DNA of 43,451 nt from a virus: IMG/VR virus record IMGVR_UViG_3300020182_000065, positions 1 through 43,451 of that record. One strand, written 5' to 3'. The translations under genes were made by a program, and so were the position numbers. Position 1 is the first letter of the stretch. Every line of letters begins with the position of its first letter. The notes below the pieces were generated by a model, which was given only the letters and a program-made list of their open reading frames with translations, ran no database searches and was not told the origin of the DNA. Shown piece after piece: positions 11,543 to 39,653 of this stretch.

Positions 11543-12061
11543 ATGGCATTTACATTACAAGACATGAAAACAGCAATTGGAGCGGGTGCCCGCTCCAATA
11601 TTTTCGAAGTAACTTATAGTGGTGGTGGTCTTGATGGTGTGGCAGCAAACTTTTCGTTTTTGACTAAAGCGGCCGCACTGCCTAGCTCCACAGTGGGTTT
11701 GATCGAAGTTCCGTTTCGTGGCAGAAGACTAAAACTTGCTGGGGATCGAGTGTTCAATGAGTGGACTGCTACCGTCATTAATGACGAAAGCTTTGCTATT
11801 CGCGCAGCACTAGAAACTCATCAAAGTTCGTTTACTGATGTTGATTTCGAAGCGGAATCGCTTGGTGATCGAACCGCAGGAAGATCTACTCTCACAGTCT
11901 CTCAGCTTGACGCTGCGGGTGTTGCAGTAAGAACGTATAGTTTAATAAACTGTTTCGCTAGTGAAATTGGTACAATCGATTTATCCTACGATACTACAGA
12001 TACTGTTGAAGAGTATACTGTTACTTGGACGTATGATTACTTCACCACGTTAGTAGCATAA
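11543..12061 (+). CDS. 19: Tail tube protein gp19, first copy
   Basis: The product is 172 residues (T4 gp19 is 163). It carries the gp19 core: GARSNIFEV, then TKAAALPSSTVGLIEVPFRG, then AGDRVFNEWTATVINDE, and a C-terminal YDTTDTVEEYTVTWTYDYF. The tube is the channel inside the sheath through which DNA passes. It follows gene 18 by 26 bases with AAGGAG as its Shine-Dalgarno, and is followed 10 bases later by a second, diverged gp19 homologue. Which copy builds the bulk of the tube cannot be told from sequence; both keep the GDR(V/T)F-EWTAT core. Confidence 0.9.
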   Translation: MAFTLQDMKTAIGAGARSNIFEVTYSGGGLDGVAANFSFLTKAAALPSSTVGLIEVPFRGRRLKLAGDRVFNEWTATVINDESFAIRAALETHQSSFTDVDFEAESLGDRTAGRSTLTVSQLDAAGVAVRTYSLINCFASEIGTIDLSYDTTDTVEEYTVTWTYDYFTTLVA

Positions 12062-12071
12062 GGAGAACGAA

Positions 12072-12599
12072 ATGGCAGGATTAAAATTATCAAGCTTCAA
12101 AGGCGCGTTAGGCGTTGCAGCCAGACCTAACAATTTCTATGTGGACATTACTTTTCCCAACCAAGTTGGTGTTACTAATACCAACATCAGATATCTGTGT
12201 AAAACTGCAGCTATCCCAGCATTTTCAGTTGGTGTAGTTGAGATTCCACATTTTGGTGGTCGTAAAATGAAGGTGCCTGGCGACAGAACCTTCGCAGAAT
12301 GGACCGCAACGTTTATTGCAGATGAAAAAATGCAACTTCACAAAGATATGGAAGCGTGGTTGCAATATATCAAAGCTTCAGATTACAGTCAGGAAGATTT
12401 GGCAGGAAGTGATACCAACGATTATCAAGGAACTATCAGTGTTATTCATACTGATCAAAGTGGTTCTGATCTGAGAACATATAATTTGGAAAATGCATTC
12501 CCAACAGAACTGGCTCAGTTAGACTTGTCATATGACAACTTTGACACAATTGCTGAATATTCGGTAACTTTCCAGTATTCACACTTGACAACCGAATAA
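12072..12599 (+). CDS. Tail tube protein gp19, second copy
   Basis: The product is 175 residues. It shares with the first copy and with T4 gp19 the blocks ARPNNFYVDITFP, CKTAAIPAFSVGVVEIPHFG, PGDRTFAEWTATFIADE and LAQLDLSYDNFDTIAEYSVT. It resembles T4 gp19 at least as closely as the first copy does (ARPN and GDRTF are as in T4). AAGGAG precedes the ATG. A strong intrinsic terminator 27 bases after the stop closes the operon. A division of labour, for instance main tube versus a specialised end ring, is possible but unproven. Confidence 0.9.
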   Translation: MAGLKLSSFKGALGVAARPNNFYVDITFPNQVGVTNTNIRYLCKTAAIPAFSVGVVEIPHFGGRKMKVPGDRTFAEWTATFIADEKMQLHKDMEAWLQYIKASDYSQEDLAGSDTNDYQGTISVIHTDQSGSDLRTYNLENAFPTELAQLDLSYDNFDTIAEYSVTFQYSHLTTE

Positions 12600-32268: not shown

Positions 32269-33327
32269 ATGAAAGTGTGCCTCTTAGGTGATACTCATTT
32301 TGGTGTACGTAACGATTCGTTGGCGTTTCATCGATACTATGACAACTTCTACACAAACCAGTTCTTTCCTTATATAGAAAAACATGGTATTAAAACAGTT
32401 ATTCAGCTGGGTGATTTGTTTGATCGCAGGAAGTATATCAACTTTGTTTCTCTGTCAGAAAGCCGCAGGTATTTTTTTGACAGGTTACAGGAGTTTGATA
32501 TTGATTTTCATGCGTTGATTGGCAATCACGATATCTTCTGGAAAAATAGTGTGGAAGTAAACTCTCCAGATTTGTTACTTCGAGGTTATGATAACATTAC
32601 TCTGTGGCAGGGGCCGGGTTCTCTGACCGTGGGTAATACGGTGTTTGATATGATACCTTGGATTTGCAAGGATAATCAGGAAGAGATCTTCAACTTTATT
32701 GATAGAAGTAACTCTCCATTTTGCATTGGTCATTTTGAGTTGGCTGGTTTTCAGATGATGAAAGGTATTCCGTCTCACGATGGTATGAACTCCGATTTTC
32801 TTGATCGATATGATTCTGTATACAGTGGGCACTTTCACACACAATCTCAAGTGGGCAAGATCCGCTACTTGGGAACTCCATACGAGTTGTTTTGGAATGA
32901 CTATAACGATCCTAAAGGGTTTTGGATATTTGATACTGATACCTCTGAGATCGAGTTTGTAAAAACGCAATATAATATGTTTCAGAAGATTTACTATGAC
33001 GATTCTAAGGATATGCCTGATATTGATTTTGATGACTATGCAGATTCTTATGTTAAGATTGTCGTACTGAATAAACAAAGTCCATATTTATTTGACAAAC
33101 TGCTCGATGAGCTGTATAATGTAGATCCTGCAAACATTTCTGTGATAGAAGATTTTGCGGATGAAACTCTTGGTGATATAGATTCTGAGTTGATCGATCA
33201 GGCAGAAGATACTCTGACGATTTTATCTAACTATATTGACCAACAAAACATTGATGAATCTGAGGAGGTAAAAACTCTTATGCGTGAATTATATGTTGAA
33301 GCATTATCTCAGGAGACTATTGCGTGA
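32269..33327 (+). CDS. 47: Recombination endonuclease subunit gp47 (Mre11-like)
   Basis: The product is 352 residues (T4 gp47 is 339). With gp46 it forms the Mre11-Rad50-type nuclease that resects DNA ends for recombination-dependent replication and host DNA breakdown. The calcineurin-type phosphoesterase motifs are clear: GDTHFG at residues 7-12, QLGDLFDRRK near 47, GNHD near 84, GHFELAG near 154 and SGHFHTQ near 186, which supply the dinuclear metal ligands. The stop overlaps the start of gene 46 by 4 bases (GTGATC region), giving coupled synthesis of the two subunits. Confidence 0.97.
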   Translation: MKVCLLGDTHFGVRNDSLAFHRYYDNFYTNQFFPYIEKHGIKTVIQLGDLFDRRKYINFVSLSESRRYFFDRLQEFDIDFHALIGNHDIFWKNSVEVNSPDLLLRGYDNITLWQGPGSLTVGNTVFDMIPWICKDNQEEIFNFIDRSNSPFCIGHFELAGFQMMKGIPSHDGMNSDFLDRYDSVYSGHFHTQSQVGKIRYLGTPYELFWNDYNDPKGFWIFDTDTSEIEFVKTQYNMFQKIYYDDSKDMPDIDFDDYADSYVKIVVLNKQSPYLFDKLLDELYNVDPANISVIEDFADETLGDIDSELIDQAEDTLTILSNYIDQQNIDESEEVKTLMRELYVEALSQETIA

Positions 33328-35039
33328 TCGTATTCAGAACATTAAAGTATAAAAACTTTTTGTCTTCAGGAAACTATTTCACGAAAATTGAACTGGACAA
33401 AGAAATTTCCACCCTGATTCTTGGTGCTAATGGCTCGGGTAAGTCTACCATGCTAGATGCTTTGTGTTTTAGTTTGTTTGGTAAGCCTTTTCGGAATATC
33501 AATAAGCCACAATTGGTTAACAGCATCAACCAAAAAAATGCGGTGGTTGAGGTTGAGTTTGATGCTGGTAATAAATCCTATCGTGTTGTTCGTGGTATGA
33601 AGCCTAACATCTTTGAGATTTATTGTAACGGCAAGTTCTTGAATCAAGACGCTGCAGTAAAAGATTATCAAGATACTTTAGAAAAGGTTATTCTGAAACT
33701 GAATTACAAGTCATTCACACAGATTGTGATATTGGGTAGTGCCTCGTTTACACCTTTTATGCAGTTGTCTGCGGCTGACCGTAGATCTATTATTGAAGAT
33801 TTGCTGGACATTCGAATTTTTACCACTATGAATTCCTTACTAAAGGAAAGACACTTAAAACTAAAAAACGAGGTGTCTAACACAAAATATAAATCAGATT
33901 CTGTTGAAGAAAAGATTGATGTACACAAGCAATATATCGATGATATCACGAGAGATAACAAAGAAAAGGTTGCTGTTCTGCAAGAACAAATTGATGATGA
34001 GCAGATTCAGATAGAAAAGCGCAAAGATGATCTTGATAGTTTGGAGTCTGCTCGTAACTCACTGCAAGAAGACGTAAAAGTCGCCTCGTCGGTTTCCGAT
34101 AAACTAAAAAAACTAGAAGATGTTCGTAAAGATCTAAGCCGTACCGTCAAGAAAATTGATAGTGAAATTTCTTTTTATGAGGGTAACGATGAGTGCCCTA
34201 CTTGCAAGCAGGATATAGACGGTGTTTTTAAGTCTAGTGTGCTTTCTGAGCGGGCAAATAAAAAGATTCAGGTGAGCGAAGGTTTGTCAGAACTGAAGTG
34301 CAAGCATAAGTCTCTGAAAGAGCGTATGGAGTCTATCAATGAATCTATGAATAAAATCGACAATTTACAAAAACGAATTGTTAGTCTACAGAGCGAAAAC
34401 ACGGCATCCCAGAAATATATTGGTTCACTACAACACGAAATTTCTAGATCAGAATCGGCTAAAAATAACATCAAAGAGCAGCAAGAAAAGCTTGCCAAAT
34501 ACGAACAGGAACTGCTTGATATCGAGGATAATATCCGCATAATGCTCGATGAAAAACATCATCAGGAGATTGCATCTACCTTGCTCAAGGATACTGGAAT
34601 TAAAACTAGAATCATCAAACAATACATTCCGATTATAAACAAGTTGGTGAATAAGTATTTGGCGTCTATGGATTTCTTCGTGAACTTCAATCTTGACGAA
34701 GCGTTCAAAGAAACTATCAAGTCTAGGCACCGCGATGACTTTTCGTATTCTTCCTTCTCTGAGGGTGAGAAACAGCGGATTGATATGGCACTAATGCTGA
34801 CTTGGAGAACCATTGCAAAACTCAAGAACTCAGCTAGCACAAATATTTTGCTTTTGGATGAAGTCTTTGATTCTTCTCTCGATAATAATGGAACAGAGGA
34901 TCTTATGAAACTTCTCAATATGCTAGAAGCGACTAATCTATTTGTTATTAGCCATAAGGGTGATATCCTGCAAGACAAGTTTGCTGATGTTATGAAGTTC
35001 GAAAAGCACAATAATTTTTCTCGGATGGTAGAGCAATGA
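33324..35039 (+). CDS. 46: Recombination endonuclease subunit gp46 (Rad50-like)
   Basis: The product is 571 residues (T4 gp46 is 560). It has the ABC-type split ATPase layout of Rad50: Walker A GANGSGKST near residue 34, two coiled-coil arms (about 185-280 and 310-420), a zinc hook CPTC near residue 291, and at the C-terminus the signature FSEGEKQRIDMAL near 480 and Walker B LLLDEVFDSSLD near 510. The start is an ATG that follows an overlapped TGA of gene 47. It shares its last 4 bases with the next gene, the GNAT/oxygenase fusion, so the enzyme cluster is in the same transcript. Confidence 0.97.
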   Translation: MIVFRTLKYKNFLSSGNYFTKIELDKEISTLILGANGSGKSTMLDALCFSLFGKPFRNINKPQLVNSINQKNAVVEVEFDAGNKSYRVVRGMKPNIFEIYCNGKFLNQDAAVKDYQDTLEKVILKLNYKSFTQIVILGSASFTPFMQLSAADRRSIIEDLLDIRIFTTMNSLLKERHLKLKNEVSNTKYKSDSVEEKIDVHKQYIDDITRDNKEKVAVLQEQIDDEQIQIEKRKDDLDSLESARNSLQEDVKVASSVSDKLKKLEDVRKDLSRTVKKIDSEISFYEGNDECPTCKQDIDGVFKSSVLSERANKKIQVSEGLSELKCKHKSLKERMESINESMNKIDNLQKRIVSLQSENTASQKYIGSLQHEISRSESAKNNIKEQQEKLAKYEQELLDIEDNIRIMLDEKHHQEIASTLLKDTGIKTRIIKQYIPIINKLVNKYLASMDFFVNFNLDEAFKETIKSRHRDDFSYSSFSEGEKQRIDMALMLTWRTIAKLKNSASTNILLLDEVFDSSLDNNGTEDLMKLLNMLEATNLFVISHKGDILQDKFADVMKFEKHNNFSRMVEQ

Positions 35040-36127
35040 AAGCGTGGCAGCATGGGTACGATCTAGATTATCTAAAAGATATAGAAAAATTGTTTGATGA
35101 CTACAATCAGTATACTTTATCGCCTTTTGCTAAGTACAAGAAAAATAACATTGCGGAGTCTTTACACAAGAACAGGCTGATATTATTAGATGATGCGCGT
35201 TTGGAAGTTGCCGAGTCTAAAGCTAAGTCTAAGATCAAGGTGTATGGTAATACTGTGCTGGGTGAGAAGCTATCCGGTGATATTACTATATCAAAGTTGT
35301 CGGGTAACATTTCTACACTGAAAAATAAAATTAATGAGTACACTGCAGACTGTTGGCTATACGTGTGGGCAGAAAATAATTCGCACGTTGAGTTGGCGAA
35401 GGAATGTGGGTTTTGTGAAGTTGGACCTAAGATTACTTCATACGGAGAAATCTATAAGATATATTATCGGGGCGAGTCGAGAGAGTTTCCTGAGATAGAC
35501 CCTGTTGAGTTTGTTGGTATCAAAAAAGTTGATAATGTTGATGGGGATTTAATTGAGTCGATACGATCTAAACTGGACAAACTACCCGAGTTTACAAATC
35601 ATTATAGCAACTATAACAAAGGAAAGTCTTGGTCTGCATTATCTTTGCGCGGATACACCGATGACCCTGCGTTTATCACTAAACCTTCCGAGATGTCGGA
35701 TGCGTGGAAAAAAGATCACGTAGGTATTGACTTTACCCTACAAGATAGTGTATTATATAATCTGTTCCCTGAAGTGAGGGATCTGATAGAACCTTACGGT
35801 GATGATGTTCATCGTGTCAGATTTATGTTATTGAAACCTAAGTCTGGTGAATTGAGTCGCCATACGGATCAAGTTGACCCCGATTCTGGTGGCTCTTTGG
35901 GGAAGTTGGCACGATTACATTTTCCTATCGTAACAAATGATATGGTTATGTTTACAGTCTGGGATACTGATGGAGTAGAACAGAATGTTAGTATGAGTGT
36001 TGGTGAGTGTTGGTTTCTTGATACGAGGAAGCCTCACAAAGCAGTGAACTTCGGTTCCGAAGACCGAATACATTTAGTTGTTGATGTTGTGACTAAGGAA
36101 TCTTTATATGGAAAACTTATTGGTTGA
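35036..36127 (+). CDS. Fusion of a GNAT-like domain and an Asp/Asn hydroxylase-like 2OG-Fe(II) oxygenase
   Basis: The product is 363 residues. Residues 1-146 end in LYVWAENNSHVELAKECGFC and KITSYGEIYKIYYRG, which resemble the acetyl-CoA-side end of GNAT acyltransferases. Residues about 180-363 look like an aspartyl/asparaginyl beta-hydroxylase cupin: ELSRHTDQ (His276, Asp278), ARLHFPIVTND, LDTRKPHKAVNFG (distal His334) and DRIHLVVD (Arg344, expected to hold 2-oxoglutarate). The substrate is unknown. It overlaps gene 46 by 4 bases and the PLP-fold gene by 20. A role in modifying a base, an amino acid or a protein is open; see the cluster finding. Confidence 0.7.
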   Translation: MKAWQHGYDLDYLKDIEKLFDDYNQYTLSPFAKYKKNNIAESLHKNRLILLDDARLEVAESKAKSKIKVYGNTVLGEKLSGDITISKLSGNISTLKNKINEYTADCWLYVWAENNSHVELAKECGFCEVGPKITSYGEIYKIYYRGESREFPEIDPVEFVGIKKVDNVDGDLIESIRSKLDKLPEFTNHYSNYNKGKSWSALSLRGYTDDPAFITKPSEMSDAWKKDHVGIDFTLQDSVLYNLFPEVRDLIEPYGDDVHRVRFMLLKPKSGELSRHTDQVDPDSGGSLGKLARLHFPIVTNDMVMFTVWDTDGVEQNVSMSVGECWFLDTRKPHKAVNFGSEDRIHLVVDVVTKESLYGKLIG

Positions 36128-36908
36128 TGATTATTTAAAGTTGCTTGCTGGTTGGCAAGATCCAAACCCCGCGCCTGTGATAGAGGAATATGATGGCGTA
36201 TCTGTAGTGCGTGATGACTTACTAAACTATGGTAGTAAGATTAGATTTATTGATTATTTTGTTGGTCACGCAGAAGAAAACAGAGATGTGGAAGAGTGGG
36301 TGTTTGGGTCTTGCCCCGCAACTGGATATGCACAGATAAGTTTGCCTGTAGTATGTTCTAAGTATGGTAAGAAAGCAGTTTTGTTTATGGCAGAGAGGAG
36401 TATGGACAAACTCCACAACTACCAGAAGCGGGGGATAGAACTCGGTGCTGAATATCACTGGGTTAAGATGGGAATGCTCAATGTTACACAATCCCATGCG
36501 CGTAAGTATGTAGAAAAGTCTCCATCTACACGCCGAGTTCTACCCCTTGGATTGGAACACGAAACTGTTCTGGCTTCCATCATAAAAGTCGCTCAGGATT
36601 TACCTATCAAACCAGACGCGGTGTGGTCTGTAGGATCGTCCGGTACTCTTAGCAGGGGATTGCAGTTGGCGTTTCCTGATGCAGAAATCCATGTTGTTCA
36701 AGTTGGGCATACAATGAAGGAGAATGAAATAGGTAGAGCAATCCACCACATTTCCCCTTATAAATTTGATCGTCCTGTCAAGGAAAAGGAGATGCCCCCG
36801 TTTCCTTCAGCTCCTACCTACGATGCTAAAGGTTGGAAGCCTATGATGGATTATTACGAGACTCACGATAAACCACAAAATATTTTGTATTGGAATGTTG
36901 CTTTTTAG
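36108..36908 (+). CDS. PLP-dependent fold-type II enzyme (ACC deaminase / D-cysteine desulfhydrase-like)
   Basis: The product is 266 residues, shorter than typical bacterial ACC deaminases (about 330). The N-terminal VSVVRDDLLNYGSKIRFIDY matches the RDDL-GGNK-R motif, placing the PLP Schiff-base lysine at Lys44. ATGYAQISLPVVCSKYGKKA and VLFMAERSMD follow the pattern after the lysine, and DAVWSVGSSGTLSRGLQLAF near residue 170 resembles the glycine-rich phosphate-binding loop. The reaction is unknown; family members open or eliminate from small amino acids. It begins inside the upstream gene, so the two are coupled. Presence in a phage replication block is unusual. Confidence 0.7.
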   Translation: MENLLVDDYLKLLAGWQDPNPAPVIEEYDGVSVVRDDLLNYGSKIRFIDYFVGHAEENRDVEEWVFGSCPATGYAQISLPVVCSKYGKKAVLFMAERSMDKLHNYQKRGIELGAEYHWVKMGMLNVTQSHARKYVEKSPSTRRVLPLGLEHETVLASIIKVAQDLPIKPDAVWSVGSSGTLSRGLQLAFPDAEIHVVQVGHTMKENEIGRAIHHISPYKFDRPVKEKEMPPFPSAPTYDAKGWKPMMDYYETHDKPQNILYWNVAF

Positions 36909-36926
36909 GAAAAACTGTGTTATAAT
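36898..36926 (+). promoter_or_regulatory. Probable sigma70 promoter upstream of the acidic unknown gene
   Basis: TTGCTT and TATAAT separated by 17 bases, across the stop of the PLP-fold gene. The -35 box is weak, but the -10 box is perfect and transcription would start near 36933, before the Shine-Dalgarno of the gene at 36951. Confidence 0.5.
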
Positions 36927-36950
36927 ATGCATTCAACTGGAGATTATATT

Positions 36951-37610
36951 ATGCGAAGATTTAAGATTTATACTGGGCGGTATGGTGGTGAACTTACTAT
37001 TGGTAGGATTTCTCAAGAACTTTTTGATAATTTAAAGTATGCAGATGAAGATGTTATTATCGAGAATTTTGATGGCTGGGATTCTGATTTAGCATGGCAT
37101 GACATTGATGATATCGAACATATTAGCGGACCTTTTGCTGATAATGAATATGATGTTTTCGAAGTAAATTCTGAAGACGAGGAGATTGCCGAAGTAGGGC
37201 GATTTAGATACAATGGTCTGTATGCCCGTGAAGCATATTTGTATGATATCAGTGCTCATGCTGCACGCCCAGAAGGTGCACCTGCACCAATCACACCAGA
37301 ACTGCAACCGGTGCTTCATTTCTTTAGTGAGGAGAAGGGTGGGTTTGGTGAGGTTTATATTGAGACTGAAGGTGACTTTGACCCTGCTAAGTTGTGTATC
37401 GGTACTGTCGAAACGGATCTGGCTGAGATCATTGATGAGTACTACTATGATGGTAAGCAAGTGGAACCGGACCTAGATTTTTGTGATACTGTGGGTAAAG
37501 GTTACTATGCCAAAGTCGGGGCTATGAATATGGAATGGCACGATAATCGATCCAACTATGGTCCTGATAGTGAGTTCGTTAAAGAAGCTTTGGAATACTA
37601 TGAAGAATAA
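36951..37610 (+). CDS. Acidic protein of unknown function
   Basis: The product is 219 residues from the ATG at 36951, which follows CTGGAG; an in-frame ATG at 36927 overlaps a -10 box and is less likely. It begins RRFKIYTGRYGGELTIGRIS and has many Asp and Glu (DNEYDVFEVNSEDEEIAEVG). A second half repeats this theme: GFGEVYIETEGDFDPAKLCI and EIIDEYYYDGKQVEPDL. Both halves have GGELTIG-like and GFGEVYI-like strands followed by acidic turns, which hints at two related domains. I recognise no family. It lies in the enzyme cluster, directly before dCMP deaminase. Confidence 0.65.
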   Translation: MRRFKIYTGRYGGELTIGRISQELFDNLKYADEDVIIENFDGWDSDLAWHDIDDIEHISGPFADNEYDVFEVNSEDEEIAEVGRFRYNGLYAREAYLYDISAHAARPEGAPAPITPELQPVLHFFSEEKGGFGEVYIETEGDFDPAKLCIGTVETDLAEIIDEYYYDGKQVEPDLDFCDTVGKGYYAKVGAMNMEWHDNRSNYGPDSEFVKEALEYYEE

Positions 37611-38076
37611 ATTTATTGTTGCGTATATGAAAGTTGCAAAAACTTTCGCTGAGATGAGCTACGCCAAGAGAGCTAAAGTTGGTGCTATCATTGTTAAGGA
37701 TGATAGGATTATCAGCATTGGGTATAATGGTATGCCTTCCGGTTGGGATAATGACTGTGAGTTGCAAGTTCTGCCCAGCTGGGCGGGCAGCATAAATGAC
37801 ATCCCCGAAGAGGATCACGACACTTATGTGACATATGTTTCCAAACCAGAAGTGCTTCACGCAGAGGCTAATGCTATTGCTAAAGTTGCGCAGAGTTCTG
37901 AGTCGTGCAAGGATGCTATATTATTCACGACTCATATACCCTGCATCGAATGTGCCAAGTTGATTCATCAGAGTGGGATTCGAAAAGTATATTATGATGA
38001 AGAGTATAATGCAAATAAGGGTTCTGGTAAGCATTTCTTACACAACTGTGGGACAGAGTTGGAACAGGTTTTATGA
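37600..38076 (+). CDS. cd: dCMP deaminase
   Basis: The product is 158 residues from the ATG at 37600, which overlaps the upstream gene; T4 Cd is 193. The reaction converts dCMP to dUMP for thymidylate synthesis. The zinc-dependent deaminase motifs are HAE at 87-89 (His87 zinc ligand, Glu89 proton shuttle) and PCIEC at 114-118 (Cys115, Cys118). The substrate loop KRAKVGAIIVKDDRIISIGY and NGMPSG are typical of dCMP deaminases. A start further upstream at 37558 would add residues unlike this family. The stop overlaps the methyltransferase start by 4 bases. Confidence 0.92.
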   Translation: MKNKFIVAYMKVAKTFAEMSYAKRAKVGAIIVKDDRIISIGYNGMPSGWDNDCELQVLPSWAGSINDIPEEDHDTYVTYVSKPEVLHAEANAIAKVAQSSESCKDAILFTTHIPCIECAKLIHQSGIRKVYYDEEYNANKGSGKHFLHNCGTELEQVL

Positions 38077-39653
38077 AATATTTTTACGAAAAGAACAACC
38101 ACTTAATCGATCATAAGGTGAACAAAACTTTTGACGAAATTCTGTGGATGTCTGATCAAGAATTTCGTGATTGGTTTATTGAGTTGCGAAAAACCGTTGC
38201 TCAAATTTGGGATGACTATGGCAATCCTCCTAGAGTTGGTAAAGATGAGGAGGACATCAAAAAACAGTTTAAGAAAATGGCTGGATATCCTGTACACGAG
38301 TTCGAGACTATTGACGAACTTACTGGTGAGTCTGATATCATTAGAAATCATTCTGGGTTAGGTAATGCCGTGAACCAATGGTTTCCTACCATGATGAAGA
38401 CGCGAATAAACTATAGTGAAAAAGATGTGGGGTTATCAATCTACGATCACTTTGCCAAGGATGAGTTGTTAGAAAAAACAATAAAGTATGCGCGCCGACA
38501 TTTCAAGCGAGATTCGTTCTATCAGCATTCTCGTACTATGATGGTTGGTGAGGAAATCGTGGTGGGTAGTGTGAGGCACACACTAACCGATGTCAAGAGT
38601 TTTGTTGAATGGTTTGAAAGTAAAGCCCGACAGTACGGCACACACGATTACTGGATCGAACACAAGAAAGGTATTGACTACTCTGGGTATAACGAAAAGA
38701 TTAATAAAGTTGAGTTTTTACTATTGACAAAGGAGCAACTTTTAGAGTATAATATACCCGAGTCGTGCAAAACCAACATTGATTATGAAGACAAAGAAGG
38801 ATTCATATATACGATTCGTTTTTATGAGAAGGGGCAGAAACTTTTCCCTGCCGGATACCGAGCGTTCCGAGTTTCTTGGTGTCAGTATGCGGTAAACTTT
38901 CCACCTATGACGGCAAAGTATTTGTATGAAAAGTACACAAAGCACATTGAGAATCAAGATACGATTAAGATTTATGACCCGTCTGCTGGGTGGGGTGGGA
39001 GATTGTTAGGAGCTATGTCAGTTAGGTCTCCTCACAAGATACACTATATTGGAACCGATCCAAATAAAGACCATACGATTACTTTGCCTGACGGAAGTTT
39101 GAGTACTAAATACCATGATGTTGCTAGATTCTATAATGAGACTAAGAACGAAGCTGTCTTGTTTAAGAAGTCTCATACACACGAAATCTATCAGTTGGGT
39201 TCAGAAGTTATTGGTGAAAATCCAGACTTCCAGAAACATAAGGGTGAGTTGGATATGGTATTTACTTCGCCTCCTTACTTTTCAAAGGAAGCGTACTCTG
39301 AAGATGATGAGCAGTCCTACAAGAAGTTTGATACATATGAAGTATGGCGTGACGGATTTTTAAAACAAACACTAAAAACTGCGGTTGAGTATTTGCGTAA
39401 CGATAGGTATTTGCTGTGGAATATTGCAGATATAAAACTCGGAAAAAATATGCTACCGTTAGAAAACGATAGCAGAGAAATTCTGGAGGGTTTAGGAATG
39501 ACCTATAAAGGTGTTCTTAAAATGGCTCTTGCTAGAATGCCAGGCGCGAATCGAATAGATTCCGAAACTGGCGAAGCAACTATGAAAAATAGTTGCAAAA
39601 TAAACGGGAATATTACTAAATATGAACCCGTATTTGTTTACTACAAACCTTAA
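38073..39653 (+). CDS. SPPY-type DNA methyltransferase with large N-terminal domain
   Basis: The product is 526 residues. The C-terminal part has AdoMet-binding motif I as YDPSAGWGGRLLGA near residue 303 and catalytic motif IV as TSPPYF near 397, in the order expected for amino (N6-adenine or N4-cytosine) methyltransferases. WNIADIKLG near 448 fits a later motif. The N-terminal 290 residues (NHSGLGNAVNQWFPTMMKTR, GYRAFRVSWCQYAVNFPPMT) are not a methyltransferase core and could recognise substrate. No restriction partner is adjacent. It could protect phage DNA or take part in base modification with its cluster neighbours. The target base is not predictable here. Confidence 0.78.
   Translation: MKYFYEKNNHLIDHKVNKTFDEILWMSDQEFRDWFIELRKTVAQIWDDYGNPPRVGKDEEDIKKQFKKMAGYPVHEFETIDELTGESDIIRNHSGLGNAVNQWFPTMMKTRINYSEKDVGLSIYDHFAKDELLEKTIKYARRHFKRDSFYQHSRTMMVGEEIVVGSVRHTLTDVKSFVEWFESKARQYGTHDYWIEHKKGIDYSGYNEKINKVEFLLLTKEQLLEYNIPESCKTNIDYEDKEGFIYTIRFYEKGQKLFPAGYRAFRVSWCQYAVNFPPMTAKYLYEKYTKHIENQDTIKIYDPSAGWGGRLLGAMSVRSPHKIHYIGTDPNKDHTITLPDGSLSTKYHDVARFYNETKNEAVLFKKSHTHEIYQLGSEVIGENPDFQKHKGELDMVFTSPPYFSKEAYSEDDEQSYKKFDTYEVWRDGFLKQTLKTAVEYLRNDRYLLWNIADIKLGKNMLPLENDSREILEGLGMTYKGVLKMALARMPGANRIDSETGEATMKNSCKINGNITKYEPVFVYYKP
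38724..38753 (+). promoter_or_regulatory. Possible intragenic sigma70 promoter in the methyltransferase gene
   Basis: Perfect TTGACA and perfect TATAAT hexamers separated by 18 bases, in the middle of the coding region. It could produce a shorter transcript for the 85-residue gene downstream or a truncated methyltransferase domain. Confidence 0.45.

Follow-up and report, generated by a model that had tools for sequence, protein, structure and literature searches.

Organization of the locus and assignment of its products

The window (the whole stretch of DNA that was analysed, a 43-kb IMG/VR record) comes from an uncultured, aquatic T4-like myovirus and contains head and tail genes together with those for UvsY, a UvsW-like helicase and gp55 and genes 47, 46, 45 and 44. 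Gene 46, encoding a recombination endonuclease subunit (33324..35039, + strand), is a flanking landmark outside the system considered here. On its 3′ side lie five genes, all on the + strand, in the order OXY (363 aa), PLP (266 aa), an acidic protein (ACID, 227 aa), a dCMP deaminase (172 aa) and MT (526 aa). Overlaps of 4 nt join the reading frames of gene 46 and OXY and those of the deaminase and MT, and one of 20 nt joins OXY and PLP; a gap of 18 nt separates PLP from the acidic gene. Our ORF check places all five genes and their overlaps where the initial annotation had put them, and the residues singled out there (OXY H276, D278, H334 and R344, PLP K44 and the MT SPPY motif) are borne out. 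No match was obtained when phage records were searched with the window locus at the DNA level.

OXY (35036-36127, +) is a two-domain protein. Residues ~165-363 (35528..36127, +) form a predicted Fe(II)/2OG oxygenase and are assigned to the Asp_Arg_Hydrox family: the match to PF05118 (3e-12) scores 47.1 bits against a gathering score of 22.6, and the HxD...H motif, the 2OG-binding arginine and the fold agree with this placement. H276, D278, H334 and R344 are invariant in 43 non-redundant homologues, a mycobacteriophage protein among them. L-Pro cis-4-hydroxylase is matched among PDB sequences (8.6e-10), Foldseek returns 4p7w (3.6e-11) and 7v4o (9.2e-10), and among solved structures those closest to OXY are L-proline cis-4-hydroxylase, a β-hydroxylase from a nucleoside-antibiotic pathway and AspH.

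The N-terminal domain of OXY (residues ~1-157; 35036..35506, +) has a GNAT fold, as judged from alignments, an AF2 model (pLDDT 93) and a profile–profile comparison. Taken alone, this half has no acetyltransferase match in Pfam. The earlier label ‘GNAT-like’ is nevertheless supported at the level of fold by a match (hhalign E 6.3e-9, probability 95.9) to stand-alone GNATs of sister loci, which themselves match Pfam Acetyltransf_10/1. In our alignments the acyl-CoA pyrophosphate loop is kept in the stand-alone form (QxxGxGxA, with QGxGxA invariant) and is absent as Q/RxxGxG/A from the OXY-fused form. The fused domain would thus be a member of the fold for which acyltransferase activity is not assured; lacking the CoA loop, it may in the window bind an adduct or DNA rather than acylate.

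PLP (36108..36908, +) is, from its sequence, a short fold-type II enzyme. It matches phrog_7093 at 1.1e-33. The window protein falls below the cut-off for Pfam PALP (0.0038), whereas phage homologues exceed it (3.5e-10 and 4.5e-12). Both the Schiff-base lysine and the glycine-rich phosphate loop (GSSGT) of the PALP group are present, and K44 and S178-G179 of the loop are invariant in 47 non-redundant sequences.

MT (38073-39653, +) combines a conserved N-terminal region (residues 1-~290; 38073..38940, +), for which no family and no Pfam match was found, with a catalytic domain (38941..39653, +) of class I SAM methyltransferase fold and motif order I-IV. Motif I (DPSAGWGGR) is at 302 and TSPPY at 398; D302, G306, G309 and SPPY are invariant in 50 non-redundant sequences. 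This invariance across homologues, in MT as in OXY and PLP, indicates that the motif residues are not there by chance. MT matches Pfam N6_N4_Mtase (1.9e-4) and, in its catalytic domain, PADLOC MTase_II (5e-8); a PDB sequence search gave no match. In BFVD it matches viral cytosine-N4-specific DNA methyltransferases (4.3e-14), and its closest structural neighbours are annotated as N4C methylases. Motif I, a motif IV of the form [S/D/N]PP[Y/F/W] and the class I fold place MT among the DNA amino-methyltransferases (N4C/N6A), a group whose defining activity is methyl transfer to DNA. TSPPY is a signature of DNA amino-methyltransferases, enzymes that act on exocyclic amines. The structural model resembles generic Rossmann methyltransferases, so that the fold does not distinguish transfer of a 3-amino-3-carboxypropyl group from that of a methyl group.

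The two remaining products appear to be accessory. The acidic protein (36927..37610, +, start maybe 36951) has a pI of 4.17, with 53 D/E and 17 K/R residues and no family match in Pfam, PHROG or NCBIfam, and occurs solely in the lineage of the window and a single sister lineage. The dCMP deaminase (37558..38076, +, start probably 37600) matches phrog_174 at 3.3e-51 and a deaminase profile at 1.5e-22; of the 56 non-redundant MT contexts, 6 include it, all in one clade and with a single change on the MT tree, and it is probably not part of the core. The initial annotation had proposed one system of five genes. A single pathway involving all five is rejected here on account of the clade-specific distribution of the deaminase and the acidic protein, which are found in the window clade only, and the core reduces to OXY, PLP and MT.

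Linkage of the core genes and turnover of modules

Profile scans of IMG/VR yielded at least 579 confirmed candidates for PLP, 203 for OXY and 227 for MT. Linkage was counted in loci fetched by one gene only, made non-redundant at 85%, with neighbours taken within 2.5 kb. Counted in this way, 24 of 28 PLP-fetched loci (among the matches listed) and 22 of 24 OXY-fetched loci have MT as a neighbour, and at least one module accompanies MT in 12 of 13 MT-fetched loci; much of this statistic reflects one T4-like clade with common synteny. Co-occurrence of the PLP, fusion and methyltransferase genes, on which the original proposal had been made to depend, is therefore conserved. Among 19 long records (87-176 kb), MT is found in all 19 and PLP and OXY in 14 each, and PLP and MT are separated in two (G017 and G019). 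By comparison, 50,697 phage records contain no full-length MT, three PLP and two partial OXY (one phage, two records), and this rarity argues that the co-occurrence is not a background effect. OXY, PLP and MT are directly adjacent, with neither acidic protein nor deaminase between them, in relatives down to ~58% MT identity (L021). OXY-PLP-MT is a conserved unit. Conserved synteny alone as the cause of the linkage is contradicted by fusions, relocations and replacements of the genes.

MT is the constant anchor of these loci, and tailoring genes are gained and lost along its tree. The minimum number of changes is 7 for PLP, 11 for OXY, 3 for stand-alone GNAT and 1 for the deaminase, with module presence scored in a fixed window so that some of these ‘changes’ may be contig-edge effects. 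The oxygenase and the GNAT occur as separate genes in L212, L220 and L239. Other loci carry GNAT-MT only (L221-L249), MT alone (L224), GNAT-OXY-MT without PLP (L134, L164), PLP-MT without OXY (L087-L103) or PLP and MT separated by a further gene, FAMx (L043, L060, L230). In L141 and L146, which also have a stand-alone GNAT, the PLP slot is filled by a PLP enzyme of another subfamily, and reordered MT-OXY-PLP units occur in the absence of gene 46. Peptide deformylase (often adjacent, absent in many loci), PAPS reductase, HNH and YspA-like genes are also found in the slot.

We also note that FAMx occurs apart from MT. In many T4-like contigs FAMx and a DruA-family protein replace MT in the interval that starts at peptide deformylase (or gene 46) and ends at a VWA/peptidase gene, and the cultured pelagiphage HTVC008M has the same pair (BGT-like gp104 and DruA-family gp106). 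This parallel cassette suggests that the slot accommodates DNA-modification modules in general.

Contexts that point to DNA as the substrate

Outside the T4-like loci, PLP is joined to DNA methyltransferases in two unrelated contexts. Erythrobacter phages R6L (vB_EliS_R6L) and ZS04 encode a ParB-methyltransferase protein that is interrupted by the PLP domain between motif I and a CPPY motif; the ExYSxD signature of this protein agrees with MT, and its N-terminus reads as ParB-like from the sequence. In an alphaproteobacterial MAG of Bauldia litoralis, a 702-aa protein is a methyltransferase fused to PLP. It is preceded by a 1203-aa Mrr_cat_2/ResIII/helicase protein, which matches PADLOC REase_MTase_IIG at 1.2e-144 over its restriction half, and FAMx comes next after the fusion; the vicinity also holds recombinase-like genes. 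A plasmid search with the methyltransferase–PLP fusion gave no match, and a search of 385 genomes of the same class found the fusion in that genome only. In the Microcystis phage Mae-JY30, PLP lies downstream of two genes annotated as ParB/sulfiredoxin.

The partners of OXY and PLP elsewhere are of a similar kind. Gp4 of mycobacteriophage LilMcDreamy is 28.6% identical to OXY over 66% and is preceded by ParB-like, TGT/DpdA-like and ADDT (PF18724, 2.7e-12) genes. FAMx, searched with alignments of 8-24 sequences against the whole PDB, matches only T4 DNA β-glucosyltransferase (BGT; E 0.0034, or 0.023 with a broader alignment), a weak but specific similarity. The replacement PLP enzyme of L141 and L146 is 26-31% identical to an Ackermannviridae PLP enzyme, which we take to be the PLP step of the 5-NeOmdU modification pathway of that family. 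In two Ackermannviridae members 5-NeOmdU replaces ~40% of thymidine, and the modification genes are conserved family-wide (PMC11721090).

We infer that OXY-PLP-MT acts on DNA. The initial annotation had spoken of DNA or nucleotide modification. The fusions, replacements and restriction island favour the former, whereas a nucleotide-level hydroxymethylase route finds no support: the thymidylate-synthase/hydroxymethylase family (PF00303) is absent from all 19 long related records, with 9 of 14 controls positive, the window record itself being a 43-kb fragment. This absence makes it probable that the base entering the pathway is not 5-hmdU, and the known 5-hmdU route appears unlikely. A search of the same 19 records for ADDT gave no match (0/19), but none of the controls gave one either.

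A proposed modular cassette for DNA-base hypermodification

The reading that we consider probable is that OXY, PLP and MT are one version of a modular cassette which hypermodifies DNA bases and has MT as its anchor. In this scheme MT would attach a SAM-derived group to phage DNA, at the exocyclic amine of adenine or cytosine. The adduct would then be tailored by PLP (acting on an amino-acid-like group), OXY (by hydroxylation) and the GNAT-type domain (possibly by acylation). Elsewhere, another PLP enzyme or a BGT-like glycosyltransferase would fill a tailoring slot, and the product may guard viral DNA against host nucleases. We infer the order of steps, the identity of the group, the protective role and the sequential action on one substrate. 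Points that weigh against the reading are the weakness of the BGT match, the loss of the CoA loop from the fused GNAT, the genomes that keep MT alone or with one module (L224, L221-L249) and the two records in which PLP and MT are separated. An amino-acid-like group is proposed because the partners of MT (a fold-type II PLP enzyme, an amino-acid hydroxylase and a GNAT) normally handle such groups. SAM is able to donate 3-amino-3-carboxypropyl. In what would be the most coherent chemistry, MT might move this group, instead of methyl, to the exocyclic amine, and so put an amino acid on the base for tailoring by PLP, OXY, GNAT or glycosyltransferase; we regard this more specific version as possible, if rather unlikely.

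Several known systems share parts of this logic. In thymidine hypermodification, amino acids are attached to 5-hmdU and tailored by PLP enzymes and acetyltransferases; work by Lee and colleagues in 2018 and 2022 is said to describe such tailoring of 5-hmdU-derived bases. The ViI and M6 pathways (5-NeOmdU, 5-NedU) resemble the present cassette in the logic of an amino-acid-type adduct, in PLP and acetyltransferase tailoring, in combinatorial gene content and in the Ackermannviridae-related enzyme that occupies the PLP slot in two loci, but here no dUMP hydroxymethylase was found (ADDT 0/19, control silent), the anchor is an amino-methyltransferase and an Asp/Pro-hydroxylase-type oxygenase is added. 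Mom of phage Mu is a GNAT-fold protein that modifies adenine in DNA and so likewise ties this fold to DNA modification; in the present cluster, however, the GNAT is fused to an oxygenase and partnered by MT and PLP, and no Mom-type profile is among the Pfam, PHROG and NCBIfam matches of its proteins. Type II and IIG restriction–modification N4C/N6A methyltransferases share DPxxGxGGR, SPPY and the fold with MT, and the fused methyltransferase of the Bauldia MAG has a restriction–modification neighbour; the PLP fusion or insertion, the long N-terminal region and the tailoring cassette set the present system apart. The likeness to T4 BGT is confined to FAMx of sister viruses, which is outside the window, very low in similarity and paired with PLP or a DruA-family protein, in records where a PF00303-family hydroxymethylase was not found (19 related records). 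In BRIGADE and Dpd systems restriction is coupled to base hypermodification (PMC12458937). The Bauldia island suggests a similar coupling, but no YprA-family helicase was identified in it and the modification genes differ.

MT could instead simply methylate DNA, as an N4-cytosine/N6-adenine enzyme of the usual kind, with OXY, PLP and GNAT being unrelated metabolic genes gathered in a gene 46-45 hotspot. The varied content of the slot, from peptide deformylase to YspA-like genes, MT standing alone in L224 and the N4C annotation of its nearest structural neighbours are all in keeping with such an arrangement, yet it leaves aside that in two unrelated contexts a DNA methyltransferase has PLP inserted in it or joined to it, that units move as a whole and that a second kind of PLP enzyme can take over the PLP slot. 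We find it quite unlikely. The cluster might also serve protein or RNA modification, with a RimI-like GNAT, a prolyl/aspartyl hydroxylase and peptide deformylase processing some part of the translation machinery of phage or host. Cellular proteins are indeed substrates of PF05118/P4H-type oxygenases and of RimI GNATs, bS18 acetyltransferase is among the weak GNAT matches and peptide deformylase is often adjacent. Nevertheless, this is very unlikely: TSPPY is characteristic of DNA amino-methyltransferases, DNA is also what the ParB, ADDT, BGT-like and restriction-enzyme partners act on, a fold-type II PLP enzyme has no obvious part in protein N-terminal processing, and peptide deformylase is missing from many loci.

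A free-nucleotide route like that of thymidine hypermodification through 5-hmdU, with dCMP deaminase feeding a modified dUMP/dTMP, seems highly improbable. The deaminase does lie inside the window cluster, and PLP and acetyltransferase tailoring is known for 5-hmdU-derived bases; against this, the deaminase is limited to one clade, ADDT is found in 0/19 records (control silent) and the 19 records of 87-176 kb hold no thymidylate synthase/hydroxymethylase member, with 9 of 14 controls positive.

The cassette favoured here points to a new way, within phage DNA hypermodification, in which bulky groups would be put on viral DNA. We found no description of a PLP/GNAT/2OG/methyltransferase cassette in the literature searched, an absence that is no proof of novelty. 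Because cultured Erythrobacter phage isolates carry the methyltransferase–PLP fusion, the chemistry should be directly readable. Most of what is known about DNA hypermodification in phages concerns 5-hydroxymethylated pyrimidines and 7-deazaguanines. If our reading is true, an amino-methyltransferase-anchored cassette of interchangeable amino-acid-type enzymes would be a route of its own and, it appears, a common one among the T4-like viruses of fresh and marine waters (at least 579 candidate PLP loci in IMG/VR), and at least one bacterium uses MT-PLP within an apparent restriction system. If MT were an aminocarboxypropyl transferase, this would be a new route to DNA-amino-acid chemistry, one that aquatic T4-like viruses have in common with at least one bacterial restriction island and that is independent of 5-hydroxymethyluridine.

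Content of the cassette slot

In the cassette slot of T4-like viruses, the MT cassette is replaced by a BGT-like FAMx and a DruA-family protein (PF14236) in Pelagibacter phage HTVC008M (locus L340, 4998–7708) and in about 30 loci such as L279. A JmjC/cupin gene sits between the two genes in HTVC008M. The window itself encodes an acidic protein (36927–37610; pI 4.17) that belongs to no known family and could conceivably be a DNA mimic or an anti-restriction factor. At locus L007, the sliding clamp gene 45 (11887–12593) appears as two reading frames that overlap, and a short segment is present twice, unlike in the near-identical L006; this is either a real duplication or an assembly error.

Candidate modules and PLP–methyltransferase fusions

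Several loci carry, immediately 5′ of PLP, a gene of a YunG-like family (~150 aa, weak Pfam match; L072 6471–6938, L063 665–1111, L169 8130–8585 and L081 6567–7007), a candidate for one more cassette module. A PAPS-reductase-family gene, possibly indicating sulfur chemistry, lies between PLP and MT in some of the viruses (L261 3716–4393; L074 7699–8445) and near the MTase–PLP fusion of Erythrobacter phages (L001 2386–3429). In Erythrobacter phage ZS04 (L002 2326–4764), and also in L001, the PLP enzyme domain is inserted in a ParB–MTase, after motif I and before the CPPY motif.

A bacterial island and a likely phage operon

An island in a Bauldia litoralis MAG (CAMCWB010000029.1; L260 145–7733), adjoined by recombinase-like genes, encodes an MTase–PLP fusion, a BGT-like protein and an Mrr-like nuclease/helicase with eight HA repeats. 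It looks like a restriction system combined with base hypermodification. In Mycobacterium phage LilMcDreamy (L004 1–3759), the consecutive genes gp1–gp4, followed by terminase, encode ParB-like, TGT/DpdA-like, ADDT-family and OXY-related proteins, and likely constitute a distinct DNA hypermodification operon of a cultured phage.
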